Below are positions 5,394 through 63,926 of a stretch of 64,000 bases of DNA, piece by piece. How positions within the stretch are numbered: position 1 is the first letter of the stretch; each line of letters opens with the position of its first letter. This DNA comes from Planctomycetota bacterium (GTDB taxonomy: Bacteria > Planctomycetota > GCA-2746535), in the NCBI GenBank assembly GCA_002746535.1, contig NVWA01000004.1, forward strand, positions 1,400-65,399, read 5' to 3'. Under the pieces are notes generated by a model that made no database searches, was not told the DNA's origin, and saw nothing but the letters and a program-made list of their open reading frames with translations. A program made the translations under genes and the position numbers.

Positions 5394-5406
5394 TTAATAC
5401 TACCGC

Positions 5407-6375: not shown

Positions 6376-6400
6376 CAACAACCTCTCAAAATAAATTTAT

Positions 6401-10199: not shown

Positions 10200-10237
10200 A
10201 ACCTGACTAAGAATAGTAGGTAATCTGAATAATTGAT

Positions 10238-11721: not shown

Positions 11722-12058
11722 AAAATCCACAAATGTTATTCAGAGTACGGCTCGAAATTCTAAGATATGATATTTAGACTTCAATTTATTCTTAATTTGA
11801 CAGTATACTTGTTTACAATTGTTAAATAATTGGCTACTATTTTGCAAATTATGGTCATTTTCAATGAAATAATCGAAAAAGTAGGCTCTCAAATTACAGC
11901 ATTGAAACCAAGGTAAGGCAGACAATAAAACCAAAATTGAAGGTATATTCATAAATTTCAGAATACATAATCCCAAATAACTTCAACATTTTGCCATACT
12001 AATTACTCAAAATAAAAAATCTCCATACAATATCAAATTTAAATTTTAAAGGTGAAAC
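11722..12058. other. 337-bp AT-rich divergent intergenic region
   Basis: Separates the TIGR02147-type regulator (minus strand) from the exonuclease III gene (plus strand). It must hold both promoters. I see an AAAGGTGAA ribosome site just before 12059 but no convincing -35/-10 pair, riboswitch or RNA gene. A 78-codon minus-strand reading frame at 11740-11976 has no ribosome site and no domain signal. Confidence 0.5.
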
Positions 12059-12823: not shown

Positions 12824-12832
12824 GCTAAAACG

Positions 12833-13438: not shown

Positions 13439-13439
13439 G

Positions 13440-14549
13440 TTATTTTAAATACACTTTTTTTATTCTAGGACCAAAGGAACAAATGATTTCATAAGGAATC
13501 GTATTTTTCCAACATGCCCAATCTTCCACCGTAATTTTAAAAGATCCAGAATGGCCAATTAAAATAACAGGATCATTTATTTTTACATCCGGAACATTAC
13601 TCACATCAACTGAGGTATAATCCATACTTAAACGGCCTACAATTGGGCATTTGCATTCATTAATAAGAACATACCCCTCTTTATAACTTTGGTAAGGAAT
13701 TCCATCAGCATAACCAATTGGTATTGTTGCAATTTTCATAGAGTTTTTAACGATGAACTCTCGTCCATACCCAAGTGATTCCCCTGGTTTAAAATCATTT
13801 ACCTTAATCACGGATGTTTTCAACTCCAATGTTTCGGCTAAATAACCATTTTTACTTGTCTGTGATTCTTGAATTCCATAGAGATTAATTCCTGAACGCA
13901 CATGCGAAAATTCTTTATAAGATTCTGGCAAAAAGTTAATCCCATTAGAATTGCCAATATGCTTGAACGGTAATTTTAATCCATTGTTTTCCAAATCATT
14001 TATTAATGCTTTAAATTCCTTCATTTGTTGCAAAGCAAAATCGTCCTCGGCACTTTCGGCATTAGTAAAATGAGAATAGATGCCTTTAATTTCTATCCAA
14101 GGCAAATTCATAACTTCTAATATTTCTTGCTGTGCAATTTTTATTGGGATACCGGTTTGACCCATTCCTGTGTCTATGTTGAATTGAATTTTTAATTTAG
14201 TATCTCGGCAATATTGTTCCCATTCTTTTAATCTACTGATAGATGATACAGGACATATCCACCCTTTTTCAATGATTGTTTTGAGTTCAGATTCAAAAAC
14301 ATCACCCAACAAATGGATTTCAGAAAACAACCCTTTAAGCTCTATGGCTTCATTTACATCCGCTAGGCCAATCTGACTAATTCCATTTTCAGCCAGATAT
14401 TTACCAATCTGAATGGCACCTAGCCCATAAGCATCTGCCTTTAATACTGGAATTAGCTGACAATCACCAATTTGAGATTGCATTGTATTAATATTTTTAA
14501 GAACTTTTTTAAGATCAATTTTTAATTGAATTCTACAAGGTGTTTTCAA
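13440..14549 (-). CDS. alr: Alanine racemase
   Basis: Interconverts L- and D-alanine for peptidoglycan. 369 residues. The PLP-lysine motif is VLKADAYGLGA near residue 40. The second active-site region GRLSMDYTSVDVS includes the conserved MD, and YGREFIV and the Tyr in SLGYGREF are family positions. YSHFTNAE corresponds to the YTHFA.AD motif. The start ATG (MKTPCRIQLKIDLKKVLKNI) matches the family N-terminus. It is followed immediately by a small hydrolase gene in the same operon. Confidence 0.93.
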   Translation of the reverse strand: MKTPCRIQLKIDLKKVLKNINTMQSQIGDCQLIPVLKADAYGLGAIQIGKYLAENGISQIGLADVNEAIELKGLFSEIHLLGDVFESELKTIIEKGWICPVSSISRLKEWEQYCRDTKLKIQFNIDTGMGQTGIPIKIAQQEILEVMNLPWIEIKGIYSHFTNAESAEDDFALQQMKEFKALINDLENNGLKLPFKHIGNSNGINFLPESYKEFSHVRSGINLYGIQESQTSKNGYLAETLELKTSVIKVNDFKPGESLGYGREFIVKNSMKIATIPIGYADGIPYQSYKEGYVLINECKCPIVGRLSMDYTSVDVSNVPDVKINDPVILIGHSGSFKITVEDWACWKNTIPYEIICSFGPRIKKVYLK

Positions 14550-14697
14550 ATTATTTGTATGTCTGAGTAAGAATATTTTTTTTGGCTAGCATATCTTTAA
14601 ATTCAATCATGTATACTTACAGGTAATTTAGATAAATAATATTGAATCTGAATCAATATCTATAAATGAGACAACTTCGAAGTATCAAAATTAATAA

Positions 14698-40120: not shown

Positions 40121-40438
40121 CTAAGCATTTTCATTTAAAATATAATAAGAAGATCTAGGGGAATCAGTAGGATATACTTTTTTTAAATACCCAGCTGCTT
40201 CTAAACTCTTCAAATCTTTAGTAGCAGTATTGGCAGCACAACCTAAAAACCTAACCACCATTACTATTGTTAATAATCTGTGCTTCTGAAATAATATTCG
40301 TAATTGTTGTCTTCTGTAATCGCTATAATTCTTGACACCTTCTTCTAATGAGATATACGTTTGCGAAAGAATTTTTTCTTGTGTAAAGGGGTTGCTTGAT
40401 TCAGTCTTCTGATTTATTTTATTTTCATCTAAAAACAA
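40121..40438 (-). CDS. Stand-alone winged-helix (DeoR-like) DNA-binding protein
   Basis: 105 residues from a TTG; no ATG or ribosome site precedes it. Residues ~40-105 are a paralogue of the C-terminal DNA-binding domain of the sigma-54 activator at 50120: TATKDLKSLEAAGYLKKVYPTDSPRSSYY here against TVTKDLKLLIEQDYIKKVMPSKSPRSHYF there. The rest of such an activator is absent; only 53 nt separate this gene from dapL upstream. It is either a small regulator or the remnant of a degraded activator. Target unknown. Confidence 0.55.
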   Translation of the reverse strand: MFLDENKINQKTESSNPFTQEKILSQTYISLEEGVKNYSDYRRQQLRILFQKHRLLTIVMVVRFLGCAANTATKDLKSLEAAGYLKKVYPTDSPRSSYYILNENA

Positions 40439-48738: not shown

Positions 48739-49074
48739 TCATATCACTGACAAATTCAAATCTTTTTGAATTTCTTTAGGTTTAACCATATCAGCAGAAT
48801 TTTTACTTGGAAAATCGGCTTCACCTGGAAAACCTAATTTTATCAGTAAATCTTTGATCAAACATTGATTCGTTATTCCAGATTGAACAAGATTTATTCC
48901 AATACCAGCAAGACCTATGTAAAATAGAGGATGAATCAACAATGCTAATATTACAGTAAAAATTACAGATACACCGGCAAGAATCCTACCAACTCTTTCG
49001 TGAGATATTTTTCTAGTGATAAAAATATTCACAAACCTTTGACTATCACTTTGACTAAATCTATTCGTATTCAT
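48739..49074 (-). CDS. YgaP/DUF2892-like two-helix membrane protein
   Basis: 111 residues. ERVGRILAGVSVIFTVILAL (helix 1, ~28-46) and IGLAGIGINLVQSGITNQCLIKDLLIKLG (helix 2, ~50-68, then the conserved Cys71). The E.RVgR..aG...l opening and sG.t..C....lL..LG end are typical of DUF2892/YgaP inner-membrane modules. The same module forms the N-terminus of the protein at 62617, where DRYGRLISG and SISDKCIVHDFLIQLG align. GGAG precedes the ATG by five bases. It is 23 nt downstream of a FeeM-like synthase gene, so the two form one operon. Confidence 0.7.
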   Translation of the reverse strand: MNTNRFSQSDSQRFVNIFITRKISHERVGRILAGVSVIFTVILALLIHPLFYIGLAGIGINLVQSGITNQCLIKDLLIKLGFPGEADFPSKNSADMVKPKEIQKDLNLSVI

Positions 49075-49097
49075 AGCTACTCCAATCTATTCTTAAA

Positions 49098-49925
49098 TTA
49101 TAAAACACAAGAAACGGCAGGTCTATACATTTCAAATTCTTCTTCTGTCCAAGAAGAATCTTTCCCTTTTAAGAACGCCATAACTTTATTTTGAGCCGCT
49201 TCACCATAAAAATTTCTAGCAAATCTTGGAATTTTTGAATCTCCATTATTTTTATTATCTCTAAACTTTTTAACTTGATTTGATAAATATTTTAGCGAAG
49301 TCGATAACAAAATCCCCGGACTACCATTAACTCTTTCGCAAGGTTTGGCTTCACCAATTTGCTGAAAACAAAATAGTTTAGTATAAAATTTTAAATGTCT
49401 TGGGTGCACTTCTACAAGAAAGTCCGTTTGCTTCATATTGTGAAAAGCATGGATGAAAATAAAATGAAACATTCTCAACAAAATAGTCTTTGATGTTCTA
49501 TATTCCGGTGCTATTGCTAGACGAGTAATCTCCGCTAATCGACGATTCATTTTTCTTAATGAAAATAATTCCTCATTAAAAATTTGATCACATGGTAACC
49601 CGTCACCAGCTTCAAAATTTAAAGTTACAGTGCCAACGGCTTTTCCTTCTTTGGTTTCTACCAATAATGTAAAAACGTTTTTACCACCATCAAAACTATT
49701 TACACAAACTTTATCTTCATTATGAATATATCCTGATTCGTTGTACACTTTGTAACCCAATTCATAGGCCTTTCGTCTAGAATCAATGTCCGTAGCGACA
49801 ATAAAATTAAAATCTTCTTCATCATTTAAGTCAACTTTTAGCACAGGTTTTTTAGCAGTAGCGCTAATTATTTTTATGACTTGTGAAACAGCTGAAATTC
49901 TTCTTTTTTTATTTGAAGCAATCAT
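49098..49925 (-). CDS. FeeM-like (N-acyl amino acid synthase/LuxI-type) GNAT protein
   Basis: 275 residues from the ATG at 49925, chosen because AGGAG stands seven bases upstream and an upstream frame extension has no ribosome site. GNAT fold resembling the N-acyl amino acid synthase FeeM group: SRRKAYELGYKVYNESGY is the N-terminal LuxI-like helix, GLPCDQIFNEELFSLRKMNRRLAEITRLAIAPEYRTSKTILLRMFHFIFIHAFHN the acyl-carrier-binding middle, and VEVHPRHLKFYTKLFCFQQIG plus PCERVNGSP the C-terminal signature. FeeM transfers acyl groups from acyl-ACP to an amino acid. A related group is the PEP-CTERM/exosortase-associated acyltransferases; no exosortase gene is in view. It is preceded by a sigma-54 promoter and followed by a DUF2892 gene. 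Confidence 0.7.
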   Translation of the reverse strand: MIASNKKRRISAVSQVIKIISATAKKPVLKVDLNDEEDFNFIVATDIDSRRKAYELGYKVYNESGYIHNEDKVCVNSFDGGKNVFTLLVETKEGKAVGTVTLNFEAGDGLPCDQIFNEELFSLRKMNRRLAEITRLAIAPEYRTSKTILLRMFHFIFIHAFHNMKQTDFLVEVHPRHLKFYTKLFCFQQIGEAKPCERVNGSPGILLSTSLKYLSNQVKKFRDNKNNGDSKIPRFARNFYGEAAQNKVMAFLKGKDSSWTEEEFEMYRPAVSCVL

Positions 49926-49963
49926 TTTATTTCTCCTGTGATAATAAACATATTGAGTATAAA

Positions 49964-49978
49964 GCATTTAGTATGCCG
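49964..49978 (-). promoter_or_regulatory. Sigma-54 (-24/-12) promoter of the FeeM-like gene
   Basis: On the minus strand: CGGCATACTAAATGC. GG and GC are ten bases apart, as sigma-54 requires; GGCA matches the -24 core and ATGC three of four -12 bases. The GC lies 39 nt upstream of the ATG at 49925, leaving a short leader with the AGGAG site. The divergent neighbour encodes a sigma-54 activator. Confidence 0.6.
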
Positions 49979-50067
49979 AATATTCACTATTTCATAAATA
50001 CAGTATTTTCAATGGGTTAGAATATTACAGAGAAAAGATGGATAATTATTTTGACTTCAGTCGTTTA

Positions 50068-50082
50068 ATTATTACTAATAAT
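50068..50082. repeat. Short AT-rich palindrome in the divergent promoter region
   Basis: ATTATTACTAATAAT, perfect 7-bp arms around one base, about 90-104 nt upstream of the sigma-54 promoter on the minus strand. Distance suits an activator site, but AT-rich palindromes arise easily by chance and it does not match the inverted repeat at 63927. Confidence 0.25.
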
Positions 50083-50119
50083 ATCTCTATATTTTCTCTA
50101 TTGATTATAGGCAATTATA

Positions 50120-52498
50120 ATGGCTTCAAAAAATAAAACGTATCATCCATTGATTGCCGCTTTTATTGAAAAGCTACATTGGTGGGACACCTTAGAAAAA
50201 ATAAAAAAAAAGCTAGACACAGATGTATATAATATTTTCAAGCTACATGAAGATCTTCACAAGACACCTCGTGAAAATATAGAGCAATTAGCAGAGAAAT
50301 TCAAAAAGGCCATTCCACTCTTTAACAATTTTCTTAAAAAAAAATGTGACCCAGACCTTCAGTTTTTATCGCTACTCTATTGGTTTGAGGACTGCATGAA
50401 AGTTGGGACATTTATAGATGCAGATTTCGTAAAAAATCATTTAGAAAAAATTCTTAATAAAAATACTCCTGATGAATTGCAAAGTATTTTCTATGGACAT
50501 ACTGGAGTTTATTATCGGAAAAAAGGAAATGCCTCTAAAGGAAATGAATATTTATTAAAATGTGTTCAATGCCTGAAACCAGATAATCCAAGATTCATTC
50601 CCGTTTTAATTAATTATGGAAATATCACTAGCTATTTTGGTACGTATCCAAAAATTAAAAATGACATTGAGCTATATTTAAAAGATACAGACAAAGATTT
50701 TAAACATTGGGGTGATCTATTACTATTTTTTTATTCTATTGAAATGGGTCATTTAAAACAAGCATGGGATGCCTTAAAAAATGTTCCAGAAAATGCACCT
50801 GGAGTGCTATTTTATTATCATAAATTCAAAATTCATTCGTTTGCCATCGCTTTAAATAAAATGATTCAAAATTGGAATATCACTGATTTTTCAAAAGTTG
50901 AAAAACAGGAAATTGATGAATTCATTCGCGACAGGTATAATCCAGGGAGTTTCGATCGAGGGTATAATATAAAGATTGAAATATTAGATAATATCTATTC
51001 AGGTAATAGCGATGAAGTAATTAAATTGACTCAAGAGGATAAATTAAGAAACAGAGATCATTGGGAATCAAGTTGGTTTTATTGCTCTCAAATTAGAATT
51101 GAACTCATGGCGGGCAATATTGAATCAGCCGAAATATTATTAAAAAATCTCATTTCAATTGGATATGAATTTATATGGAACGACTGGTTTATGACACGAA
51201 TTGAGCTAGCCAAAAAAAATATCGATGCTGCAAAATATTATTTTCAGAAATTATTAAAATCAGTACAAAAACATAATGCTGAAGATCGCTTTAACTTTGA
51301 GGTCAAAATAGCCCATGAAATAAAGGCAACCGATTTAATTCTATTATCAGACAATAAGAATTTAAAAATTAAAAAGCCCTCAAAGACCAAAATAAATTTA
51401 GATATTGACAGAATGCCGGCAATCATTGGAATAAGCAAACAGGTAATTAAATTAAAAGAATCAATATCAAAAGTTGCCCCGCATGACATCAATGTTTTAA
51501 TTCTAGGAGAGACAGGTACAGGTAAAGAGGTAGTCGCAAAATCACTGCACAATTTAGGCCCAAGAAAAAAAGAACCATACATTGCAATCAACTGTGCCGC
51601 CATTTCAGAAACATTACTTGAATCTGAATTATTTGGCCATCAGAAAGGTGCTTTTACGGGGGCAACAGAATACCATAAAGGTGTTTTTGAACAAGCGGGT
51701 AAGGGTACCGTTTTTTTGGATGAAATTGGTGAGATCAGCTCCAACATTCAAAGTGCTTTATTAAGAGTTTTAGAAACTAAAGATATTAAGCCGATCGGAT
51801 CATCTAAATCTTTAAAAATTAATTGTCGTATCATCGCTGCAACTAATGCCAATCTAGAGTTGAAAGTAAAAAATAACGAATTTCGAATGGATCTTCTGCA
51901 TCGCCTTAACAGAGTAGTCGTACATACAAATCCACTAAGAAAAAAAATCGAAGACATCCCCCACTTAAGCCAATATTTCTTAAATCAAAATCCGAACTTC
52001 ACAAAAGAAGCGAATCTAACCTTTGAGGCTATTGAAGCTTTAAAAAAATACCCGTGGCCAGGTAATGCTAGAGAACTTAAAAATGAAATGGAAAACCTTC
52101 GGATTTTCAATTATGAGACATCCCTTTATGATCTTCAAGATTTAGATCCAAAATTTCATGGCCGAGCGGAATCCACTGAAAAAGCAGAAGCCCTATCCCT
52201 TTCAAGTCTGCAAAGCTCCGAAAATAAACACGCGAAACCAACGGAGATAATTGATAGAGAACAAATCTTGGCAACTGAAGTTTTGTCAAACAATAAAATT
52301 TTCTTTCGAAGAATCGAAAAAATCAAAAAACTTTTTGATATTCATAACATATTAACACGAGCAGAATTAATAAAAATCATGGGAGTTTCTCACTTGACAG
52401 TAACAAAAGATTTGAAGCTATTAATTGAACAAGACTATATTAAAAAAGTCATGCCGAGTAAATCTCCACGTTCACATTATTTTGAAAAACTACCTTAG
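50120..52498 (+). CDS. Sigma-54-dependent activator with TPR-like sensor and C-terminal winged helix
   Basis: 792 residues. N-terminal ~410 residues are helical and repetitive (SKGNEYLLKCVQCLKP, GNIESAEILLKNLI), resembling TPR-like repeats instead of a receiver, GAF or PAS sensor. The AAA+ domain (~430-670) is complete: Walker A GETGTGKE (463-470), the sigma-54 contact GAFTGA (510-515), Walker B VFLDEIGE (531-538), RMDLLHRL arginine finger and WPGNARELKN. The usual Fis-type HTH is absent. Instead a winged helix at ~722-790 (ILTRAELIKIMGVSHLTVTKDLKLLIEQDYIKKV) resembles DeoR/MarR-type DNA binding. Transcribed divergently from the FeeM-like gene whose promoter it probably activates. Confidence 0.85.
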   Translation: MASKNKTYHPLIAAFIEKLHWWDTLEKIKKKLDTDVYNIFKLHEDLHKTPRENIEQLAEKFKKAIPLFNNFLKKKCDPDLQFLSLLYWFEDCMKVGTFIDADFVKNHLEKILNKNTPDELQSIFYGHTGVYYRKKGNASKGNEYLLKCVQCLKPDNPRFIPVLINYGNITSYFGTYPKIKNDIELYLKDTDKDFKHWGDLLLFFYSIEMGHLKQAWDALKNVPENAPGVLFYYHKFKIHSFAIALNKMIQNWNITDFSKVEKQEIDEFIRDRYNPGSFDRGYNIKIEILDNIYSGNSDEVIKLTQEDKLRNRDHWESSWFYCSQIRIELMAGNIESAEILLKNLISIGYEFIWNDWFMTRIELAKKNIDAAKYYFQKLLKSVQKHNAEDRFNFEVKIAHEIKATDLILLSDNKNLKIKKPSKTKINLDIDRMPAIIGISKQVIKLKESISKVAPHDINVLILGETGTGKEVVAKSLHNLGPRKKEPYIAINCAAISETLLESELFGHQKGAFTGATEYHKGVFEQAGKGTVFLDEIGEISSNIQSALLRVLETKDIKPIGSSKSLKINCRIIAATNANLELKVKNNEFRMDLLHRLNRVVVHTNPLRKKIEDIPHLSQYFLNQNPNFTKEANLTFEAIEALKKYPWPGNARELKNEMENLRIFNYETSLYDLQDLDPKFHGRAESTEKAEALSLSSLQSSENKHAKPTEIIDREQILATEVLSNNKIFFRRIEKIKKLFDIHNILTRAELIKIMGVSHLTVTKDLKLLIEQDYIKKVMPSKSPRSHYFEKLP

Positions 52499-52652
52499 TC
52501 CTCAACATTAACTTTTTTCAAATTAAGTATCTATATGTAAAACCGCTACAACTCATTCTGTTGTAATATTGTTTCCATACAACATATATATAGAAACACC
52601 AAATTAGAAGACTAAACTTCTTTGAAAAGAATTCAATTTGAGAATATCTACC

Positions 52653-55600
52653 ATGCATATCTTTAATACTAAATTTTTTATAGTAATTTCGGCACAAATA
52701 TTTTTACTTTTCATATCTATTCATTCTGAAGATTGGCCAATGTGGAAAGGTACCTCCGGACGCGGTGGAGTAAACAATGAGACATTACCCAGTAAAATGA
52801 ATTTGCTATGGACTCGTCAATTTCCAAAATCAAAACCAGCATGGGCTAATAACAAAAGCCAAGCAAAACTTCAGTTTGATGTATCCTTTCAACCAGTTGT
52901 TATGGGTAAAAGTATATTCGTACCTTCAAATGTTAATGATAGTGTAAGTGCATATGATACCGATAGCGGTAAGCAAAAATGGATTTTTTATTCTGATGGC
53001 CCTGTAAGATTTGCACCCGTGGCCAATGATAATAAAGTTTATTTTGTATCGGATGACGGTTACTTGTATTGCCTCAATGCAGAATCAGGAAAACTAATCT
53101 GGAAATATAATGGTGGACCTGAAAATAGGAAAATCCTTGGTCGTGATCGATTAATTTCTATCTGGCCAGCTCGTGGAGCACCAGTGCTAAAAAATAAAAA
53201 AATATTTTTTGCCGCCAGCATTTTCCCCTTTATGGGAACTTTCATTCATTGTGTGGATGCAAATTCAGGCAAAATGATTTGGAGAGATACAGGCAACGGA
53301 CCTAAATATTTTACGCAACCTCATGGTGCTGGATCTTTTGCTGGTCTTTCTCCTCAGGGATACCTTGCTGCAGGTGATAAATATTTAATCGTACCCGGAG
53401 GAAAATCTTTACCGGCTGTATATGACATTGAAACGGGGAAATTCTTATACTATTATTTGAACAGTAAGAAAGGCGGTTACAGTGTTCAAGCAGGTAAAAA
53501 CTTTTATTTTACCGGTGGTTATGCCAATCAAATTAACAAAACAGAAAAAGGCTTTTCTATCATCAATGGTATATACGCCACTTACGGAAACACCTTAATT
53601 TCAGACAAGGCCATGTATCTTTTACATAATAGTATAATTACGGCTTACCGATTCAAGCCAGAATTTGAAATGAAGGTATATAAAAAAAATAGAAAAAAAG
53701 CTTATCTTACCATGCCAGTTTTGGGCGAATTCACAATTCCTTCGCCAAAAAGTGCTGTCAGGATCAAAGCCGGGAATCAAATTATTCTATATGAGCGTTA
53801 CAAAAAACATCTTTACGCTGTTAAGCTACCAAATGAAGAAACACTATTAAAAGCAAAAGCCGGGGAATCTGTAAAACAAAACTTACCCACTATTTGGACT
53901 ATCCCGACAGGAAAAAGCCCATGGTCTGTTATTGCTGCAGATAAAAAAGTTTTTGTGGTTACACACGAAGGACTATTATCTTGTTATGGTGCAAGCACAC
54001 AAGAGGTCCAAAAACATAACATTGCCTTAACTCCATTACCAGACACTTCAAACTCGGTTGCTAAATCATTGTTAGAAGTTTTAAAAGAATTGAAAATTAA
54101 AGACGGCTATTGTGTTTTAGCAGGCTTAGGAAATGATAAATTAGCTGAAACGCTAATTAACAAAACAAACCTTTCTATAATTGCTGTCGATTCAGATAAA
54201 TCAAAAATAAATTCATTAAGACATTCAACTGATCAAGCTGGCTTTTATGGCAATAGAATGTCAGTACATGAAGGCGATCCCCTTTCATATCCACTCCCAC
54301 CCTATTTCGCAAACATAATAATTATAACAAATTTAAGCAAACGTTTTTTATATAGTAAATCTAACTTAAAAACTTTATTTAATTCACTACGTCCTTATGG
54401 TGGCACAGCTTTCTTTAAAGTATCTCCATCAGATATTGATAAAGTTAAAGCTCTATCTACAAAAGCAGGTCTTATTAATGCTGAAATAAAAGCTTCAAAT
54501 GGATGGATGCTCTTAATTCGTAAGGGCGCACTTCCTGATTCTGCAGAATGGTCCCACCAGTATGCCGATTCATCAAATAGTATATTTGGCAAAGATAAAC
54601 TTGTCAAACTACCCCTAGGATTATTATGGTTTGGCGGTCCTCCAAATACAAATGTTCTACCAAGACATGGTCATGGTCCATCCCCTCAAGTGGCAGGCGG
54701 CAGAGTTATTATAGAAGGTCAGAATATGTTAAGGGCTGTTGATGCTTACACAGGCAGGTTACTTTGGGAACTTAAGTTAAAAAATCTAGGATATTATTAT
54801 CGACATACGGGCCATCATCCTGGTGCTAATGAAATTGGAGGAAATTACGTATCATTACAAGACACTATATATGTTGCTTATGGGAAAGATCTTTTATTTT
54901 TAGAAGCAGCTACAGGCAATTTGTTAAAAAAAATAAATTACAAAGAAAATGATAGCGACAAAGAATCTAAAACATGGGGTCATATTTCTGTTCACAAAAA
55001 TTATTTAATTACAACAACCTCACCAATTACATTTAAAATACAAAAAGATAAAACAGCTATAATAAATAAAAATGCAAAGTATTCTTCTGGAAGTGAACAA
55101 ATAATAGTACTTAATCGCAAGACGGGAAAAATACTCTGGAAACGAAAAGCCAAATTCAATTTTAGGCACAATGCCATATGCAGTGGCGATGGTGTCTTAT
55201 TTTGCATTGACTCTTTCTCAAAAAGTAAATTTAATTATTTAAGAAACCAAGAAGAGAAAATCGGAAAACTATTAGCACTTGATATCAAAACTGGGAAAGA
55301 AATTTGGTCCAGTAATGAAAATATAACAGGAACCTTTTTAAATTATTCTGATAAACACAAAGTCCTTCTCCAGGCCGGTAGCTCCAACCGAGACAGGGCC
55401 AGAGATGAGACAAAAACAGGCATGATAGTTTATCAAGCTAAAGATGGAAAAGTAGTCTGGCAAAATTTAAAAATAAAATACGGAGGCCCATTAATTATCC
55501 GACACAAAGAAATCATTACCAATGGTGGTGGTGGCACAGGAATTGATTTACTTTCAGGCAAAGCCACAAGTTTTAAGTGGAAACGAAACTACGGATGCAA

Positions 55601-56342
55601 CACCGCTATTAGTTCAGAACACCTACTGACCTTTCGATCAGGGGCAGCAGGTTTTTATGATTTAACTAATAGAGGCGGAACAGGAAACTTCGGTGGTTTT
55701 AAATCCAGTTGTACATCAAATCTTATTCCAGCTGATGGAATACTAAATGCTCCCGATTATACCAGAACTTGTTCATGTGCTTATCAGCTCACTGTCTCCT
55801 GTGCTTTGGTCCATATGCCTGATGTAGAGTACTGGACATTTAAAGCTGATGCTACTCCTGGAAAATGGGGATTCAATATTGCTGCATTAGGAGATAGGAA
55901 AGTCCCCAATGGTTCTTTGTGGCGAAAATTTGACATTTTAAAAAACAGAAAATATATACGATCAACTTCTGGCAAATTAACACCGTTCAGAGTTCATTCA
56001 GGCTACGTTAAAGGAGAAAAGTTTAAATGGGTTGCTTCCTCTGGAGTAAAAGGTTTAACTGATTTAAACATCAATGTTAAGGGAGCTACCAAAGGTACCG
56101 TTAGGCTAATTTTCATGGAACCAGACAAACTCAAAATAGGAGATAGAATCTTTGATATATCATTGCAGGGAAAAGAGTTAATTAAAGGGCTTGATATAAT
56201 CAAAGAATCTGGAGGACAAAATCATGTCCTGATCAAAGAATTTAAAGATATCGAATTAAACAATTCATTAAAAATTATATTTAAAGCATCCACAAAGAAC
56301 CCACCTATTCTCAGCGGAATAGAAATTATCAAAACAAATTAG
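52653..56342 (+). CDS. Secreted double PQQ-type beta-propeller protein with an inserted methyltransferase-like domain
   Basis: 1,229 residues from the ATG at 52653; an in-frame TTG at 52638 is also possible. Signal peptide (FNTKFFIVISAQIFLLFISIHS) then DWPMWKG..GRGG, the usual start of exported PQQ-like propellers. Propeller 1 spans ~30-455 with repeats of the form AYDTDSGKQKW, CLNAESGKLIWKY and DANSGKMIWRD. A Rossmann-like domain at ~465-625 (YCVLAGLGNDKLAETL, IIAVDSDKSKINSL, ANIIIITN, FNSLRPYGGTAFFKV) resembles a class I methyltransferase but lacks a clear GxGxG motif. Propeller 2 (~635-1,085) has AVDAYTGRLLWELKL and similar units. A C-terminal beta domain follows. Occurs in PVC bacteria; function unknown. 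Confidence 0.7.
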   Translation: MHIFNTKFFIVISAQIFLLFISIHSEDWPMWKGTSGRGGVNNETLPSKMNLLWTRQFPKSKPAWANNKSQAKLQFDVSFQPVVMGKSIFVPSNVNDSVSAYDTDSGKQKWIFYSDGPVRFAPVANDNKVYFVSDDGYLYCLNAESGKLIWKYNGGPENRKILGRDRLISIWPARGAPVLKNKKIFFAASIFPFMGTFIHCVDANSGKMIWRDTGNGPKYFTQPHGAGSFAGLSPQGYLAAGDKYLIVPGGKSLPAVYDIETGKFLYYYLNSKKGGYSVQAGKNFYFTGGYANQINKTEKGFSIINGIYATYGNTLISDKAMYLLHNSIITAYRFKPEFEMKVYKKNRKKAYLTMPVLGEFTIPSPKSAVRIKAGNQIILYERYKKHLYAVKLPNEETLLKAKAGESVKQNLPTIWTIPTGKSPWSVIAADKKVFVVTHEGLLSCYGASTQEVQKHNIALTPLPDTSNSVAKSLLEVLKELKIKDGYCVLAGLGNDKLAETLINKTNLSIIAVDSDKSKINSLRHSTDQAGFYGNRMSVHEGDPLSYPLPPYFANIIIITNLSKRFLYSKSNLKTLFNSLRPYGGTAFFKVSPSDIDKVKALSTKAGLINAEIKASNGWMLLIRKGALPDSAEWSHQYADSSNSIFGKDKLVKLPLGLLWFGGPPNTNVLPRHGHGPSPQVAGGRVIIEGQNMLRAVDAYTGRLLWELKLKNLGYYYRHTGHHPGANEIGGNYVSLQDTIYVAYGKDLLFLEAATGNLLKKINYKENDSDKESKTWGHISVHKNYLITTTSPITFKIQKDKTAIINKNAKYSSGSEQIIVLNRKTGKILWKRKAKFNFRHNAICSGDGVLFCIDSFSKSKFNYLRNQEEKIGKLLALDIKTGKEIWSSNENITGTFLNYSDKHKVLLQAGSSNRDRARDETKTGMIVYQAKDGKVVWQNLKIKYGGPLIIRHKEIITNGGGGTGIDLLSGKATSFKWKRNYGCNTAISSEHLLTFRSGAAGFYDLTNRGGTGNFGGFKSSCTSNLIPADGILNAPDYTRTCSCAYQLTVSCALVHMPDVEYWTFKADATPGKWGFNIAALGDRKVPNGSLWRKFDILKNRKYIRSTSGKLTPFRVHSGYVKGEKFKWVASSGVKGLTDLNINVKGATKGTVRLIFMEPDKLKIGDRIFDISLQGKELIKGLDIIKESGGQNHVLIKEFKDIELNNSLKIIFKASTKNPPILSGIEIIKTN

Positions 56343-56374
56343 GCAACAGTCGTAGGTTGGGCTGCAGACTATTT

Positions 56375-57211
56375 TCAATCGCCAGAATCGATTAAACCTA
56401 CCGTGTCAATTCCCAGTAGTTGATTATCTAGCCACTGCATTACACTTGGCCACAATTTCTGTGTCCAATCGTTTTGAGGATTATAAAAAAATCCATGGCC
56501 AGAATTGGGGCTAGGTATAAAAGTGACTGGTCTCTCATTTTTCATTAATGCGTTAGCAAGAATTAAGGATTGATCATAAGGAACCGTTTCATCAAAAGGA
56601 TCGTGCACAATATACATAGGTGAAGAATTTTTATCAACATGCAATGCTGGAGAAGCTTGGACATATACTTCTTCAATTTCTTCAATGGTACCACCTAAGA
56701 AATGAGCTCTTTTATTTTTTGTTTTTTCATAATTATTTTCTAGATAAACAAAATCATGAACTCCATGAACATCAACCACACAATTAACTTTAGCAGAGAC
56801 CCCATCATGCTCTTGGCCAAATACACCTAGGCAAGCAACTAGATGCCCTCCGGCAGAACTGCCGATGGCACCAATCTTATCAACACTGATTTTAAAGCGA
56901 TCTGCATTTTTACGAAACCAAACAACAGCTGACTGACAATCGATTAAAGCAGCAGGAAACACAGCCACTTGGGATAGTCGATAGCTAATTGTACAAGCAA
57001 CATAACCGTGTAAAGCAAGACGATGAGCATGCCATAAAAATTGATTTCGATCGCCAGCATTCCAGCCCCCGCCATGCACTAAGATGATACCGGCGCCATT
57101 TTGTTTTTTTTCACTAGGTAGGAATACATCTGCAGTAAGTTCTGTTTCGCCATAAATGGCAAAGACCTCGGAAAGATCGGGGTCAGGAAACTCTTTTTCG
57201 TAATATGTCAT
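56375..57211 (-). CDS. Alpha/beta hydrolase, acetyl-esterase/lipase (BD-FAE-like) type
   Basis: 278 residues. ADVFLPSEKKQNGAGIILVHGGGWNAGDRNQF carries the HGGGW oxyanion hole. Nucleophile elbow GSSAGGH, acid DPFDETVPYDQS, and His in SGHGFF complete the triad. ALIDCQSAVVWFRKNADRF is the family helix preceding the elbow. No signal peptide. Likely de-esterifies sugar or xylan-type substituents. Its 3' end faces the PQQ gene. Confidence 0.88.
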   Translation of the reverse strand: MTYYEKEFPDPDLSEVFAIYGETELTADVFLPSEKKQNGAGIILVHGGGWNAGDRNQFLWHAHRLALHGYVACTISYRLSQVAVFPAALIDCQSAVVWFRKNADRFKISVDKIGAIGSSAGGHLVACLGVFGQEHDGVSAKVNCVVDVHGVHDFVYLENNYEKTKNKRAHFLGGTIEEIEEVYVQASPALHVDKNSSPMYIVHDPFDETVPYDQSLILANALMKNERPVTFIPSPNSGHGFFYNPQNDWTQKLWPSVMQWLDNQLLGIDTVGLIDSGD

Positions 57212-57247
57212 TTATAACTTTCTTCAGTAATACAATGAAAAATAAAC

Positions 57248-57263
57248 ACAAAGCATGCTTTGT
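57248..57263. repeat. 16-bp perfect palindrome, likely half of a dispersed hairpin element
   Basis: ACAAAGCATGCTTTGT, followed by CTCTAC. The GTCTCTAC end resembles the GTCTCTA end of the 48567-48708 element, so this may be a related intergenic repeat. Lies between the esterase and the metallophosphoesterase, which are divergent. Confidence 0.35.
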
Positions 57264-57340
57264 CTCTACAAAAATATATTGATAGATGATTCTCTCAAAT
57301 ATAATATGATTTCCAATAAATAACTTAAAGAAAAACGGCA

Positions 57341-58207
57341 ATGACAAAGTTCATCTATATTTCAGATACTCATTTTGGTGCCAATCCTATGAATTATCAT
57401 CAACAGGAAGGTTATCCAGAAAAGCTTCCAGAAATTATTTTAAAATTAAATGAATTCATCAAAAACAGAGACGATATAGATTTTGTTCTTCATGGTGGGG
57501 ATATGATTGATAGTGTTTCTGAACAAACCATTTCAATGGCAAGCAAGTATTTTAAATTTGATGTTCCTATTTACCTTTGTCTTGGCAATCATGATTTAAC
57601 CGAATTGAATTCGTTGGATCTTTGGCTCAAAATTGCTCCTCAATATTTTAACGATACAAATAAACCTATCTTCACTATTACAACAAAAGATTGCCTCATC
57701 CATGTCATCCCTAATCACTGGGAGGAAATCCCTTATTACTGGAGTGAAACTCAAGAGGCCTATTTATCGGAAGAACAAATTAATAATCTTTCACACGAAC
57801 TAAACAAATCAACCGATTTTCCTCATATCGTTTTAACACATAGTCCCATTTTTGGCTTACCCACTGAACAAACAGGACAAGAAGAAATATACCACTCCCC
57901 AAATGAAAATTTCAGGAAGACCTTAACTTCTCTAGCACAGAATCACAAGACTATCAAATGTATCCTTGGTGGTCACAACCATTTGAATATGAATTTAAAA
58001 CATGAGAATGTTCAGTATGTTACAGCTAGTTCTTTTTCAGAAGCACCCTTTGACTTCAAACTTTTTGAAGTTTCAAAAAACTCAATCACAATGGAAACAA
58101 TAAACCTAGCTGACTCACTTGATTTTAATATTGAATACAACTCAGAAAAATCGTATGTTCAAGGTCGACCAATTGACCGAAAGTTCGCAATAAACTTTGA
58201 TTTATGA
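57341..58207 (+). CDS. Calcineurin-like metallophosphoesterase
   Basis: 288 residues. The dimetal motifs are all visible: YISDTHFG (D.H), LHGGDMID (GD..D), LGNHD (GNHD), VLTHSPIFG (H) and LGGHNHLN (GHNH). Resembles the CpdA/3',5'-cyclic-nucleotide phosphodiesterase-like group. Substrate unknown. Overlaps the propeller glycosidase gene by 6 nt convergently. Confidence 0.85.
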   Translation: MTKFIYISDTHFGANPMNYHQQEGYPEKLPEIILKLNEFIKNRDDIDFVLHGGDMIDSVSEQTISMASKYFKFDVPIYLCLGNHDLTELNSLDLWLKIAPQYFNDTNKPIFTITTKDCLIHVIPNHWEEIPYYWSETQEAYLSEEQINNLSHELNKSTDFPHIVLTHSPIFGLPTEQTGQEEIYHSPNENFRKTLTSLAQNHKTIKCILGGHNHLNMNLKHENVQYVTASSFSEAPFDFKLFEVSKNSITMETINLADSLDFNIEYNSEKSYVQGRPIDRKFAINFDL

Positions 58208-59287
58208 ATTACCATAAATATGTTTCTTTTGGTCTGTATGATTTAACTCTACTCTGTTTTTCGAATCCATATTAATCGTACCAATAGCACTCATAACAGT
58301 ATTAGATGTTCCTCCATCTTTAGCACCAACATATACTAAATGATACTTCTCATCAATTAAAATTGAACTAGGAGATGCGAGTTCTTCAGAATCATTATCA
58401 TCCATTGAACCTCTAGCTAAAACATTTTTACTTTGGTGTGTAAGCGTAACACCATCATCGGCTAAATATATTTCATAAAGTTCAACAAAACGAGCCATGC
58501 CTCCACTAGCTCTATTTCCAACTCCGCAGATTGCAGCATAACCGCCATCATCTAAGACTCGGATTGAATTCGGATCAAGCTCATGCCAAATAATCATCCG
58601 ATCTTCTTCAACTGATTGACCTTCAATAGGTTCTAATACATGAAGCCTTTTCCAGTTAATCGCATCATCAGAACCCCAAAGAGCTGAATAATAATCATTC
58701 CCACCCCCATGAAGCGAATAACCAATATACTTATTTTCAATTCCAGAAAAAGGATTCTTACTCCAACGGAAATATCCGGTATGACCATCACCTGGATCTT
58801 CATCCGGATTATATTTTAATATAACAGAATCCTCGTCGCCATTAATTCTAGAAAAACTAATACCATCATCTGAAGTAGCTAATAAAGTTGCCTGACTTGG
58901 ACCAATACCATTTTTGTGATAAGATAAAAATACTTTTCCATCAACTACATTGGCATGTGGTGTTTCCGTATGGCCATCTCCTTGTACATTATCAAAATAA
59001 ATCGGATTCGATAATGGCTTTATTGCAATGTGATCAAACGCACCTTCCCCTAAAACATCATCATAAGACTTCCAACTTTTCGCTTCAGATGGCACCCCAT
59101 TACAAACATATAGCCAAATACCACCGTCTTTACTATTATGATCCGTTGAAAAATACATTGCATAATCAAACGGAAAGGTCTCAATGTTTTTCATGTCAAT
59201 TAGTGTTGTATAATAAGGTCCTGGTGCCGGCATATCATCAGGGCGAAATATAATACTACCCACTTTTGAAAAGGTGTTATTACTCAT
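58202..59287 (-). CDS. Five-bladed beta-propeller glycoside hydrolase-like protein
   Basis: 361 residues, all-beta. FRPDDMPAPGPYYTTLIDM and YAMYFSTDHNSKDGGIWLYVCNGV open the propeller, and DGHTETPHANVVDGKVFLSYHKN, TSDDGISFSRI, WSKNPFSGIENKYIGYSLHGGGNDYYSALWGSDDAINWKRL continue the blades. It resembles GH43/GH32/GH117-type propellers, but family cannot be fixed by eye. No signal peptide, so a cytoplasmic glycan-processing enzyme is likely. Lies in a cluster with two sulfatases, 30 nt downstream of the first. Confidence 0.6.
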   Translation of the reverse strand: MSNNTFSKVGSIIFRPDDMPAPGPYYTTLIDMKNIETFPFDYAMYFSTDHNSKDGGIWLYVCNGVPSEAKSWKSYDDVLGEGAFDHIAIKPLSNPIYFDNVQGDGHTETPHANVVDGKVFLSYHKNGIGPSQATLLATSDDGISFSRINGDEDSVILKYNPDEDPGDGHTGYFRWSKNPFSGIENKYIGYSLHGGGNDYYSALWGSDDAINWKRLHVLEPIEGQSVEEDRMIIWHELDPNSIRVLDDGGYAAICGVGNRASGGMARFVELYEIYLADDGVTLTHQSKNVLARGSMDDNDSEELASPSSILIDEKYHLVYVGAKDGGTSNTVMSAIGTINMDSKNRVELNHTDQKKHIYGNS

Positions 59288-59317
59288 TTTATTCTTCTTT
59301 CTAAAATATTTGTCAAT

Positions 59318-60937
59318 CTATTTAACAATAAACTCAGCACTTGTCTCTTCGCTCTCCGCAAAACCAATTCGAATAGATTTAGTTCTAATTCGATAACTAC
59401 CTTTTTCTAACATTAAAGGTTCATGATACAATTGCCATTTAATATTTTCTCCATTTTCAAACGTGTAGGCAATTGAGGCTCCCTGAGTCATGCAAACTAA
59501 TTGAACTCGAGTTGGTGAAGAAAACTCTCCTCCCATTGGTGTCAATTCAGACTCTAACTTGTTTTTATCTAGCGGGAAAAATTTCACGACACTAGTTTGT
59601 GGTTGCTTACCATCAGGATACCAATTTCTTACCATTTCTTCTTCAGTTATTTTTCCTAAATCTCCAATATCAAACATCCATTGATCAAGAGCTTTACGCA
59701 ATCTTTTTATTTCAATTTTGTATTTAGAATCTTTTGCTAAATTATTGACTTCATGGGGATCTTCTACAATATCATATAATTCTTCTGAAGGTTTTTTTTC
59801 AAACATTAATTTCTGCACATCATTCAGCTCATCACTAAAATACAAACGATGCATCTCCTGAACTATGGGATGACGATTACAATAAGGTGTAAAAGGCAAA
59901 TAAGGAGAATGAAGATCATAATGTCTCATATATTTAAATTTTTTATCTCGAACAGCTCTCACCATATCATAACTTTCATCGTGCCTATCCCGATGAGCAA
60001 AAATATATTCTCGGGCGTCCTCTTTTTCGTTTCCTAAGAACGCTTGGCCTTGCATATACTGAGGGATCTCTAGTCCTGCCAAGGACATCATCGTTGGTCC
60101 AAGATCAACTGAACTAATCAAGTCCTCATTTATTGAATCTGGCTTAACGTTCTCAGGATATCGAATGATCATAGGTATATGAATTCCAGAATCATAAGGC
60201 CAACGTTTACCGCGAGGCATTGGACCATGATCACTCCAATGTACTACGATGGTATTTTCAGCCAAGCCATCTTCGTCCAATTCTTTTAAAAGATTGCCTA
60301 ATTGTTGATCCGCCCATTCAATGTTAGCATACATTTGAGTCATAGACTCTCTAACTTTTTTAGTATCAGGAAAATAAGGTGGCAAGACCATATCATCAGG
60401 ATTAAAATTATTTTCACACCATTTATTCTCTGGCCACATGCCACTTTCATGCGTTAACATCGGATTAAATACTGCGAAAAAAGGCTGTTCTGTATTCGGA
60501 CGATTTCTCCAATGAGCCTCTTTTCCTAATTCATCCCAAGCCGTAACGGGTGATTCAAATTGATAATCAGTCTTATGATTATTAGTACAATAATATCCGC
60601 TTGCTCTAAAATATTCTGTAAAACATTTTACATAATGAGGCAACTTAGCATCATAGGGCGTGGGAAGCTCTCTACAGTTATCATTATTATGTGTCGTTCG
60701 CATATGATGAGTACCAATAGAAGTCGGATACATCCCTGTGATTACCGCTGACCTTGACGGAGAACAAACACCCGATGGCGCGAATGCATTGGGCCAAATA
60801 CAGCCATCTTTTGCAAGCTGATCAACTATTGGAGTACGGGCAACCTGATCACCATAACATCCATAAAATGGATTCGAATCTTCAAAAGATACCCATAAGA
60901 TATTCGGCCTGTTCTTAGCATTACTATTCTTACTCAT
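59318..60937 (-). CDS. Formylglycine-dependent sulfatase, cytoplasmic form
   Basis: 539 residues from the ATG at 60937 (GGAA upstream). Family start RPNILWVSFED with metal Asp positions, then SGVCSPSRSAVITGMYP: Cys58 in CSPSR is the residue converted to formylglycine. Later HWSDHGPMPRGKRWPYDSGIHIPMIIRYP carries the remaining metal ligands (DHG). The protein has no signal peptide. A C-terminal beta domain (~450-539) follows the catalytic part. Hydrolyses a sulfate ester on an oligosaccharide. The maturation enzyme is not in the window. Probably co-transcribed with the propeller glycosidase downstream. Confidence 0.9.
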   Translation of the reverse strand: MSKNSNAKNRPNILWVSFEDSNPFYGCYGDQVARTPIVDQLAKDGCIWPNAFAPSGVCSPSRSAVITGMYPTSIGTHHMRTTHNNDNCRELPTPYDAKLPHYVKCFTEYFRASGYYCTNNHKTDYQFESPVTAWDELGKEAHWRNRPNTEQPFFAVFNPMLTHESGMWPENKWCENNFNPDDMVLPPYFPDTKKVRESMTQMYANIEWADQQLGNLLKELDEDGLAENTIVVHWSDHGPMPRGKRWPYDSGIHIPMIIRYPENVKPDSINEDLISSVDLGPTMMSLAGLEIPQYMQGQAFLGNEKEDAREYIFAHRDRHDESYDMVRAVRDKKFKYMRHYDLHSPYLPFTPYCNRHPIVQEMHRLYFSDELNDVQKLMFEKKPSEELYDIVEDPHEVNNLAKDSKYKIEIKRLRKALDQWMFDIGDLGKITEEEMVRNWYPDGKQPQTSVVKFFPLDKNKLESELTPMGGEFSSPTRVQLVCMTQGASIAYTFENGENIKWQLYHEPLMLEKGSYRIRTKSIRIGFAESEETSAEFIVK

Positions 60938-60987
60938 TTTATTATTTCCAATTAAAATAATTGATATCACATGCTAGTAGTCATATG

Positions 60988-61074
60988 GTAGCACAAGCTT
61001 CCAGCATGTAACTAAAATGCTGATTATAGAATATAATATGAAAAAATTCACAACAAGCTAGAAGCTTGTACTAC
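60988..61074. repeat. Pair of inverted 22-bp repeats with nested hairpin
   Basis: Left GTAGCACAAGCTTCCAGCATGT (60988-61009) and right, read on the minus strand, GTAGTACAAGCTTCTAGCTTGT (61074-61053) agree at 19 of 22 positions. Each arm folds on itself; the right one has perfect ACAAGCT-AGA-AGCTTGT. Lies in the gap between divergent sulfatase genes. Resembles a REP/MITE-type intergenic element with 43 nt between arms. Confidence 0.6.
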
Positions 61075-61183
61075 ATAAATATTTCAATTTAAAATTTTAT
61101 TATCAAGATTGAGACATTCATTGCAATCTATGAAATATCACTATAACCATTTATACTTTTGATCACAATAATGAGGAACAATC

Positions 61184-62551
61184 ATGTCGGAGAAACCAAA
61201 CATAATTTTAATCAATTGCGATGACCTAGGTTATGGTGACCTAGCCTGTTATGGATCAAAAGTTAATAAGACTCCAGCACTTGATAAGCTGGCAGCCGAA
61301 GGAATTAAATTCACTGATTTTTATATGACATCACCTGTCTGCTCACCTTCTAGAGGTTCCATGCTAACAGGCTGCTATCCTCCAAGAATAGGTTTTGGAT
61401 CTTTTGTGAATGGCGGCTGGGTATTATTTCCAGGTGACGCATTAGGATTACATGAAGATGAAATTACGATTGCAAAATTATTAAAACAAGCAGACTATCA
61501 AACTAAGATAGTTGGCAAATGGCACTGCGGAGACCAAAAAGAATTTCTACCAATACGACATGGGTTTGATAGTTATTATGGCATACCCTATAGTAATGAC
61601 ATGGGACGCCAAAATGCCGATGATAAACAACCACCCCTACCTCTTTTAAAAGATGAAGAAGTCATCCAAGAACAACCAGATCAAAGAGGAATAACCGAGC
61701 GATACACCGAGGAATGCGTTTCTTTTATTCGAGATAATAAAGACAAACCATTCTTTTTATACCTAGCCCATATGTATGTTCATTTACCCATTTATGTACC
61801 AAAACAATTTCTCGATAAAGCTGAAAATGGACCTTATGGTGCTGCCGTTGAACACATTGATTGGGTTACTGCTGTTCTAATGGATGAACTTAAAAGGCAA
61901 GGCATAGACGATAATACATTAATCGTCTTTACCAGCGACAATGGATCTCGCGCTCAAGGGGAAGGTGGCAGCAATGCTCCACTAAGAGGACGTAAAACCC
62001 AAACCTGGGAAGGTGGCCAAAGATTACCATGCATTATGCGTTGGCCAAGAAAAATAAAATCAGGTCTCGTCAATAAAGAAATCACCTCATCTATGGATTT
62101 CTATAAAACATTCGCTGCCCTGGCAGGTGTAGAAATACCAACAGATAGAATTATTGATGGTAAAGATATTCGACCAATGCTTTTTAATGAGCCAGATGCC
62201 AAAAGTCAATACGATGCTTTTTTTTATTATAAATGCAATGATTTAGAAGCCGTTCGCTCTGGAAAATGGAAGCTACATGTGTCAAGAGACAAAGTAAAGG
62301 TTGAAGAATTATACAATTTAGAGTCTGACATAGGCGAACAAACAAACCTCTTTAATCAAGAACCTGAAATAGTCAAAGACTTAATGATAAAAATTAAAGC
62401 ATGTCAAAAAGATATCGGTGATGAAGCCGCTGGTATAAAAGGGGAGAATATACGCCCTATCGGAAAAGTTGACAGCCCTGATACGCTAACTCACTACGAT
62501 CCCGAGCATCCATACATTATTGCATTATACGATTTAAAAGAACGTGGTTAG
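61184..62551 (+). CDS. Formylglycine-dependent sulfatase (arylsulfatase-A-like), cytoplasmic form
   Basis: 455 residues. PNIILINCDDLGYGDLACYGS is the Asp-pair metal motif; Cys53 in PVCSPSRGSMLTG is the formylglycine site; IVGKWHCG carries Lys and His; FTSDNGSRAQGEGGSNAPLRGRKTQTWEGG carries DN and K. The standard arylsulfatase A fold appears complete. No signal peptide. A GAGGAA ribosome site is six bases before the ATG. Divergent from the other sulfatase. Substrate unknown; sulfated polysaccharide breakdown is inferred. Confidence 0.92.
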   Translation: MSEKPNIILINCDDLGYGDLACYGSKVNKTPALDKLAAEGIKFTDFYMTSPVCSPSRGSMLTGCYPPRIGFGSFVNGGWVLFPGDALGLHEDEITIAKLLKQADYQTKIVGKWHCGDQKEFLPIRHGFDSYYGIPYSNDMGRQNADDKQPPLPLLKDEEVIQEQPDQRGITERYTEECVSFIRDNKDKPFFLYLAHMYVHLPIYVPKQFLDKAENGPYGAAVEHIDWVTAVLMDELKRQGIDDNTLIVFTSDNGSRAQGEGGSNAPLRGRKTQTWEGGQRLPCIMRWPRKIKSGLVNKEITSSMDFYKTFAALAGVEIPTDRIIDGKDIRPMLFNEPDAKSQYDAFFYYKCNDLEAVRSGKWKLHVSRDKVKVEELYNLESDIGEQTNLFNQEPEIVKDLMIKIKACQKDIGDEAAGIKGENIRPIGKVDSPDTLTHYDPEHPYIIALYDLKERG

Positions 62552-62616: not shown

Positions 62617-63792
62617 CTAAGCAAGAACAAGTTCATGTTCAACACCAAAGTAACACATTTCATCTACACTCATTGGTCTACTTGATTCACGAATAAAATC
62701 ACCAATATAGGCTTCCTGCATTTCTAAAACAAAATAGTTGTACAATGTTTTTCTCCCAACTCTTGCTGTTGTATTTCTACCAGCAATTATTTTTTCTTCA
62801 GCTTTACCAAGATCTAGTTTTAATAAGACGGCAGGAGCTCCTTGAACCCTTCCACAAGGCTTAGAGTCACCAATTACTTCAAAACATAAAAGTCTTTTGT
62901 AATAGCCAACATGTCGAGGGTTAACCTCAATCAACATATGATCAGATGCAAGGTTTTTATATGCATGTATATAAACAAAGTTCATAAGATTTTTAATTAG
63001 GTTTCGAGAGTTCCTATAGCTTTCATCAACAACCAATCGAGTTATCTCCACCATTTTTTTATTTTGATTATTCAACTCACTTAATTCGTCTTTAAATATT
63101 TTCTGACAAGGAATATCGCCATGAACATTTGACACTACTGAAATAGAAGCCACAGAATTTCCATTTTCGTCTTCTGCTAAAAAAGTAATTGTATCCGGCC
63201 TTGCATCGTCACTATTAACAAATAATTTATTTCGATCTTGAGATGAATAGCCACACTGACCATATACTTTTTGAGATAATTGATAAACTTTCTCTCTATC
63301 AACTCGATTAGAAGCCACACTAATTCTAAAGTTGATCTTTTCAGATATCTCCCATTTTGGAGAACCAATTTCTACTTCTTCTTTTAATACCCATAGTGCT
63401 TGAGAAGTTGCTGAACGTTTTTTCTCTTTGATTTGATGCTTTTTCTCAATCTCATCTCGCACTTCAATTTTTTCACTCTTCAATACCTGTTTTAATTTTC
63501 CGCCTGAGAGAAAAATATCCTCTCTATCCTTTGCACCCAATTGAATTAAAAAATCATGAACAATACATTTATCAGATATAGAAGTTAACACTAATGAAAG
63601 ACTAACGACTAAAGCTCCCAAATTCCAATAAGGGTTGTACATACTCATGAGTAGAAAAATAGAAATTAAAAACCCACTGATTAGTCTTCCATATCTATCC
63701 ACACTCCAGTGACTAAAACTTTTAGACAAAGCTGCTTTAAAACCATTTAAATGATTGTTCAGTTTTGGGGTCTGAATCGCTGAAATACTCAT
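62617..63792 (-). CDS. Fusion of a YgaP/DUF2892-like membrane module and a FeeM-like synthase
   Basis: 391 residues. The N-terminal part (~30-90) is a two-helix DUF2892-like module: RYGRLISGFLISIFLLMSMY, LGALVVSLSLVLTSISDKCIVHDFLIQLG. A charged linker (~95-150) follows. The C-terminal GNAT part (~154-330) resembles FeeM: KVYQLSQKVYGQCGYS, IPCQKIFKDELSELNNQNKKMVEITRLVVDESYRNSRNLIKNLMNFVYIHAY, LIEVNPRHVGYYKRLLCFEVIGDSKPCGRVQGAPAVLLKL. It thus joins the two separate proteins of 48739-49925, but with the membrane part in front. Preceded by a sigma-54 promoter and GGGAGAAAG ribosome site. Probably anchored on the cytoplasmic face of the membrane. Confidence 0.72.
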   Translation of the reverse strand: MSISAIQTPKLNNHLNGFKAALSKSFSHWSVDRYGRLISGFLISIFLLMSMYNPYWNLGALVVSLSLVLTSISDKCIVHDFLIQLGAKDREDIFLSGGKLKQVLKSEKIEVRDEIEKKHQIKEKKRSATSQALWVLKEEVEIGSPKWEISEKINFRISVASNRVDREKVYQLSQKVYGQCGYSSQDRNKLFVNSDDARPDTITFLAEDENGNSVASISVVSNVHGDIPCQKIFKDELSELNNQNKKMVEITRLVVDESYRNSRNLIKNLMNFVYIHAYKNLASDHMLIEVNPRHVGYYKRLLCFEVIGDSKPCGRVQGAPAVLLKLDLGKAEEKIIAGRNTTARVGRKTLYNYFVLEMQEAYIGDFIRESSRPMSVDEMCYFGVEHELVLA

Positions 63793-63847: not shown

Positions 63848-63926
63848 AATTTCAATAAATCGTAAGTTCCTAATTTTAAAAGAGTTATGATAAATGCTCA
63901 ACATTTAGCACTGGAAATAATTGACT

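Follow-up and report, generated by a model that had tools for sequence, protein, structure and literature searches.

The DNA examined here, a 64-kb window that forms part of contig C3 in a 6.76 Mb draft genome (G000, 88.9% complete), carries two minus-strand genes for FeeM-domain proteins, each facing the gene of a sigma-54 activator (bEBP). FeeM1 (49098..49925, minus; 275 aa) is a homologue of FeeM-domain N-acyl amino acid synthases that scores 143.5 bits against PF21926 (cut-off 27) and remotely matches the solved FeeM 2g0b (E 3e-5). Its best start, supported by a ribosome-binding site (AGGAG), is the ATG at 49925; the ATG of the longest open reading frame, at 49967, falls within the promoter. 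The second gene of this operon (48739..49074, minus) encodes a small membrane protein with a YgaP-like transmembrane segment (PF11127, at its cut-off) that is similar to the N-terminal part of FeeM2, and separate 97-aa YgaP-type transmembrane genes stand ahead of FeeM in two other cassettes. Divergent from FeeM1 lies the gene of its putative cognate activator (50120..52498, plus; 792 aa), a member of a 29-member family that scores 217.8 bits against PF00158, has GAFTGA and both Walker A and Walker B, and matches HTH_DeoR. FeeM2 (62617..63792, minus; 391 aa) joins an N-terminal membrane segment to the FeeM domain (PF21926, 138.4 bits, cut-off 27; 2g0b, E 5.6e-5), and its putative cognate bEBP, 765 aa long and from the same 29-member family, starts 21 bp past the right end of the window (C3:65420-67717, plus). 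Judged purely by family membership, that is by PF21926 and the remote match to 2g0b, the products of FeeM1 and FeeM2 would be N-acyl amino acids.

Elsewhere in the window, two sulfatases and a protein without a Pfam match are encoded between the two cassettes (58202-62551), and a GH94-type phosphorylase lies at 36187-38583. Window positions 48991-60495 recur with 99.98% identity over 11.5 kb in bases 3095-14599 of JAESQG010000566.1 ('Pseudomonadales bacterium NORP220'). That contig is the sole FeeM-bearing contig of the NORP220 MAG, and its bases 1-3094, joined at base 3094, are unlike DNA in which a cysteine-desulfurase-like coding stretch can be made out by eye; it is therefore probably chimeric or mis-binned.

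Upstream of both FeeM genes the preliminary description had placed a site with GG-N10-GC geometry, and the exact sequence bears out position and geometry alike: CGGCATACTAAATGC at 49978-49964 (minus) forms the probable -24/-12 promoter of the FeeM1 operon, and TGGCTTGTGATTTGC at 63847-63833 (minus) that of FeeM2. The GC lies 39 and 41 nt from the start codons, ATG 49925 and ATG 63792, as had been calculated, and the -12 form is ATGC at FeeM1 and TTGC at FeeM2. Transcription would be expected to start near 49952 for the FeeM1 operon and near 63821 for FeeM2. In isolation the two sites are unconvincing, since the bare geometry occurs 98 times per strand in the window, which makes counting it uninformative as a test, and since they match the consensus TGGCAC-N5-TTGC at only 7/10 and 8/10 positions. 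They gain significance as members of a family-wide element of divergent bEBP/FeeM-type regions. With both sites held out of training, a promoter-plus-operator scan over all window positions on both strands ranked FeeM2 first (40.0) and FeeM1 second (31.0); the next match was the palindromic operator of the FeeM2 site on the opposite strand (21.2), followed by the FeeM2 site shifted by one base (15.7), and the best score thereafter was 12.2.

The two FeeM genes had been described as the only members of their family, which holds within the window but not genome-wide, where 34 FeeM-domain matches exceed the Pfam cut-off. Alongside them the genome encodes many sigma-54 activators, 29 of which belong to one unusual N-terminal family. 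At 27 bEBP loci there is a divergent neighbour. In 21 cases, which include both window genes, this is a FeeM-containing operon, and in the other six it consists of non-FeeM genes: DUF1611 with an enolase-superfamily enzyme, a thioredoxin-like protein, an MFS transporter, a beta-propeller protein, a Trp-halogenase-like flavoprotein and one unknown. Of the FeeM genes, at least 11 lack a neighbouring bEBP. There is one RpoN (a single PF04552 match), with an intact RpoN box, ARRTVTKYRE. The enzymes of the cassettes include FAD_binding_4 oxidases, either separate or fused to FeeM on either side, as well as methyltransferases, fatty-acid desaturases, ThiF and domains of the nitronate-monooxygenase-like and glycosyltransferase types. 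Small membrane proteins that resemble YgaP also occur; one cassette, at C27:160.6-165.6 kb, has the order methyltransferase-FeeM-ThiF.

Some loci depart from the common layout. At C46:116089-120596 two FeeM proteins, each about 750 aa long, are encoded in tandem without an adjacent bEBP, and the first has weak TPR-type matches behind its FeeM domain. At C43:16634-18934 a FeeM-adjoining bEBP is split into two open reading frames, with one TGA inside the AAA+ match; this is either a broken regulator or a sequence error. A FeeM-FAD_binding_4 fusion at C101:65617-68055 lies downstream of, and co-directional with, a bEBP gene. The fusion is preceded, at 38 nt from its start, by a separate CGGCATATGAAATGC site that closely resembles the one at FeeM1, so that the bEBP upstream may serve two promoters.

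We ran an unsupervised expectation-maximisation motif search on the 27 divergent regions without any prior. It returned TTGGCAY-N5-TTKCTATAGA, a -24/-12 element that is directed away from the bEBP and has no counterpart on the reverse strand. When the learned matrix is set aside and the textbook consensus is counted, matches of at least 8/10 occur in 24/27 regions, compared with a mean of 0.69 and a maximum of 4 in 200 dinucleotide shuffles, 1/27 on the reverse strand and 6/133 before unrelated genes. This answers the objection, raised in the preliminary description itself, that such sites might prove equally common before unrelated genes. One bEBP locus, C71:221818, had no clear promoter site in the region scan. 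Scanning directly upstream of FeeM gave about ten matches and missed cassettes in which FeeM is the second gene and those with TC or CC at -12, and scanning outward from the bEBP recovered both. Across the family, the start supported by a ribosome-binding site lies a median of 40 nt from the -12 dinucleotide. The family motif, the intact single RpoN and the bEBP adjacent to each gene strongly support the sigma-54 control that had been proposed for both FeeM genes.

The -24 GG is kept family-wide, whereas in 11/25 regions the -12 GC is replaced by TC, CC or GA. These regions carry a second -12 form, TTTC/TTCC/TTGA, mostly followed by TATAGA, which the GG-N10-GC rule misses for lack of the GC; TTTCTATAG represents this subtype as the counterpart of TTGC. 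Sites within one mismatch of TTGGCAYN5TTYCTATAGA number nine in 6.76 Mb, and all nine lie before cassettes and none elsewhere. The two -12 forms follow the bEBP clades in part, with 5 changes over the tree against 8.3-8.5 in shuffles. A sigma-70-type reading of TATAGA was discarded because its spacing to TTGGCA is too short.

Between bEBP and promoter we found de novo a second element, tcaTAAcTcttT-N7-AA...TTAtgAa, which spans 32 bp and ends 10-13 bp before the -24 T in about 20/25 regions; its log-likelihood was 210, compared with 87-93 for shuffled sequences. The operator matrix is self-complementary at a single centre (0.40, versus at most -0.56 for all other centres tested), which identifies the element as a dyad, TCATAA-N4-TT-N7-AA-N4-TTATGA (31 bp), centred near -55. 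In the window, the FeeM1 dyad TTCTAACCCATTGAAAATACTGTATTTATGAA (49991..50022, minus) lies 12 bp upstream of the -24 element with its centre at about -55, and the FeeM2 dyad TCATAACTCTTTTAAAATTAGGAACTTACGAT (63859..63890, minus) lies 11 bp upstream with its centre at about -54; both are putative bEBP sites. Compared with most known bEBP enhancers, the dyad is nearer the promoter and its distance varies less. An IHF site was also considered, as some members contain CAA-N4-TTR, but such an asymmetric site is inadequate for an element that is symmetrical about one centre.

The activators themselves consist of a divergent N-terminal region of about 400 aa, an AAA+ domain with Walker motifs and, in nearly all members, GAFTGA-type loops, and a C-terminal DeoR-like winged helix, which occupies residues 722-792 in the 792-aa bEBP beside FeeM1. 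Mean pairwise identity is about 19% in the N-terminal region, about 48% in the AAA+ domain and 40% in the winged helix. The C-terminus matches HTH_DeoR and not a Fis-type helix-turn-helix, and the N-terminal region matches no Pfam family at cut-off, known sensors included. Scattered weak TPR, PPR or PknG_TPR matches in a few members suggest that this region is probably a helical-repeat sensor. In NtrC-family bEBPs a Fis-type C-terminal helix-turn-helix and a receiver, GAF or PAS N-terminal sensor are usual but not obligatory.

Regulator and synthase have a linked history. Over 20 pairs, distances among the bEBPs correlate with those among their FeeM partners (Mantel r 0.54, reached in 0/5000 permutations), which indicates that the two largely travelled together; the cassettes appear to have spread through joint duplication of regulator and FeeM, with enzymes added or swapped.

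The arrangement is rare but recurs in a second genome. FeeM occurs in only 3/40 genomes of the same phylum, the source genome included, and the winged-helix family in only 10/392 genomes. One of these, G323, belongs to the same phylum but to another family, has a G+C content of about 72% and contains nine such bEBPs together with 13 FeeM matches. The layout is preserved at all seven of its bEBP loci whose divergent region could be read, and a GG- or GA-N10-GC site lies at 79-146 nt from the start of the bEBP; FeeM is directly next in six of the seven and farther along in the same direction at the seventh (C20). The operator matrix from the source genome, applied to G323 at the same distance, scores above shuffles (summed P 0.0015). 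We prefer this test to an operator pattern recognized by eye in 4/7 loci, since that pattern was chosen after inspection. The bEBP-FeeM pairing is not universal, for a third genome, G075, has 23 FeeM matches and one bEBP of this winged-helix family.

We consider it highly probable that each of these loci is a self-contained biosynthetic cassette that works in parallel with the others, and that its sigma-54 promoter is activated by the bEBP next to it. The bEBP gene would be transcribed in one direction and the FeeM-type operon in the other, from the -24/-12 promoter about 40 nt before the first codon. The neighbouring bEBP would bind the dyad operator through its winged helix, sense a cue with its N-terminal region and, through its AAA+ domain with GAFTGA, remodel the RNA polymerase-sigma-54 complex, and the operon would stay silent until that cue arrives. 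The earlier suggestion that the FeeM product is made on a specific signal would fit this scheme. Promoter element, operator, pairing, co-variation of bEBP with FeeM and conservation in a second genome are properties read from the DNA itself; protein binding at the dyad, the cue, the product and a transcription start at the site are what we infer. Against the explanation by private cassettes counts the failure of the canonical -12 GC invariant in 11/25 regions, though the conserved TATAGA stands behind it. The unusual placement of the operator, the FeeM genes that lack a neighbouring bEBP, the locus C71:221818, the single such bEBP of G075 and the draft state of the genome weigh on the same side.

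Autoinduction, in which each bEBP N-terminal domain would recognize the acyl-amino-acid product of the FeeM in its own cassette as part of a private synthase-receptor circuit, is a special case of the private-cassette explanation and compatible with it. The physical pairing and co-variation of bEBP and FeeM agree with it, as do the fast divergence and weak TPR-type matches of the N-terminal domain. Six members of the bEBP family, however, drive genes other than FeeM, among them those for an MFS transporter, a halogenase, DUF1611 and a beta-propeller protein. A FeeM product is therefore not required as the cue, and we regard autoinduction as rather unlikely. Slightly less probable still is its extension to about 20 parallel synthase-receptor circuits per cell, with bEBPs sensing the lipid of their own FeeM or of a neighbour strain; N-acyl amino acids would then serve as a sigma-54-based chemical language whose channels are private, apart from any cross-talk that the shared dyad might allow.

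The preliminary description had argued for a common sigma-54 regulon. What stands of this is the shared promoter design; a common control is too simple a reading, as nearly every cassette has a dedicated bEBP and the N-terminal halves share only about 19% identity. One or a few bEBPs that activate all FeeM operons on one global cue would account for promoters and half-sites that are alike in nearly all cassettes, and the 11 FeeM genes without an adjacent bEBP would need activation in trans, if they are sigma-54-dependent. Yet the bEBP exists in 29 copies, nearly all adjoining a target, its N-terminal half has diverged far beyond the AAA+ domain, and bEBP and FeeM co-vary as expected for private pairs. 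We therefore give a common regulon only a small chance. A single regulon is possible if paralogous bEBPs cross-activate, but the data suggest many separate switches with one promoter design, between which the shared dyad may leave room for cross-talk.

With an equally small chance, the promoter is sigma-54-dependent but another protein binds the dyad, with the bEBP acting from elsewhere or from solution. A candidate for such a repressor or competitor would be a free-standing winged-helix relative in the window (40121-40438, minus), a 105-aa DeoR-like open reading frame downstream of an aminotransferase that falls into one family with the C-terminal domains of the bEBPs linked to FeeM (E 1e-22) and is possibly a solo regulator or a remnant. 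Its existence and the unusual closeness of the dyad to the -24 element speak for such a protein. Against it stand the location of the dyad, right in the intergenic DNA between bEBP and operon, and the winged-helix domains of the bEBPs, which would suit a dyad. Chance resemblance, by which AT-rich intergenic DNA happens to hold two GG-N10-GC matches, could point to the frequency of that geometry and the mediocre consensus scores, but the 24/27 regions against 0.69 expected, the held-out ranks of 1 and 2 and the genome-wide specificity have already refuted it at the family level and leave it next to no probability.

Compared with known systems, the cassettes combine known parts in an unusual and heavily expanded arrangement. 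They share with NtrC-family/sigma-54 systems the -24 GG and -12 GC with 10-bp spacing, an intact RpoN, the AAA+ domain with GAFTGA, a divergent bEBP gene and an upstream operator, and differ in the DeoR-like winged helix in place of Fis, the N-terminus without a known sensor family at cut-off, the fixed promoter-proximal distance of the operator and the TTYC-TATAGA -12 subtype in 11/25 regions. The closest design is the PEP-CTERM regulon (PrsR/PrsK, sigma-54), where many genes likewise share a two-part upstream module, motif 1 being the activator site and motif 2 the sigma-54 site, and one regulator, PrsR (receiver plus Fis), serves the whole set (Haft et al. 2006, PMC1569441); here, nearly each target has its own bEBP of a different architecture. 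FeeM1 resembles the exosortase-associated acyltransferase TIGR03694 only distantly (32.2 bits, cut-off 111.95) and FeeM2 does not match it, so we rejected a PEP-CTERM acyltransferase identity for FeeM1. Among known FeeM/NasY clusters (fee, stieleriacine/thalassotalic acid, tyrazolone; PMC12479983), which have the FeeM-domain synthase in common with ours, the N-acyl(dehydro)tyrosine clusters resemble the methyltransferase-FeeM-ThiF cassette on C27 (PMC12479983). Stieleria neptunia has three nasY genes (PMC12479983), against 34 FeeM matches here, and fusions of FeeM to FAD_binding_4, glycosyltransferase or TPR and dedicated sigma-54 activators set the present family apart. A literature search returned no paper joining an N-acyl amino acid synthase with sigma-54.

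The arrangement provides a computable signature, consisting of operator, 11-13 bp, -24/-12 promoter, about 40 nt, start codon and divergent bEBP, that finds and delimits many small biosynthetic clusters and names the likely regulator of each; clusters found in this way would be expected to be silent in culture. The roughly 27 bEBP-promoter pairs form a natural set for studying insulation among paralogous activators, and bear as well on how TTYC-TATAGA replaces the -12 GC and on the cue of a fast-evolving N-terminal domain. The arrangement points to a bacterium that produces many related lipids and keeps each of them under a tight switch of its own.
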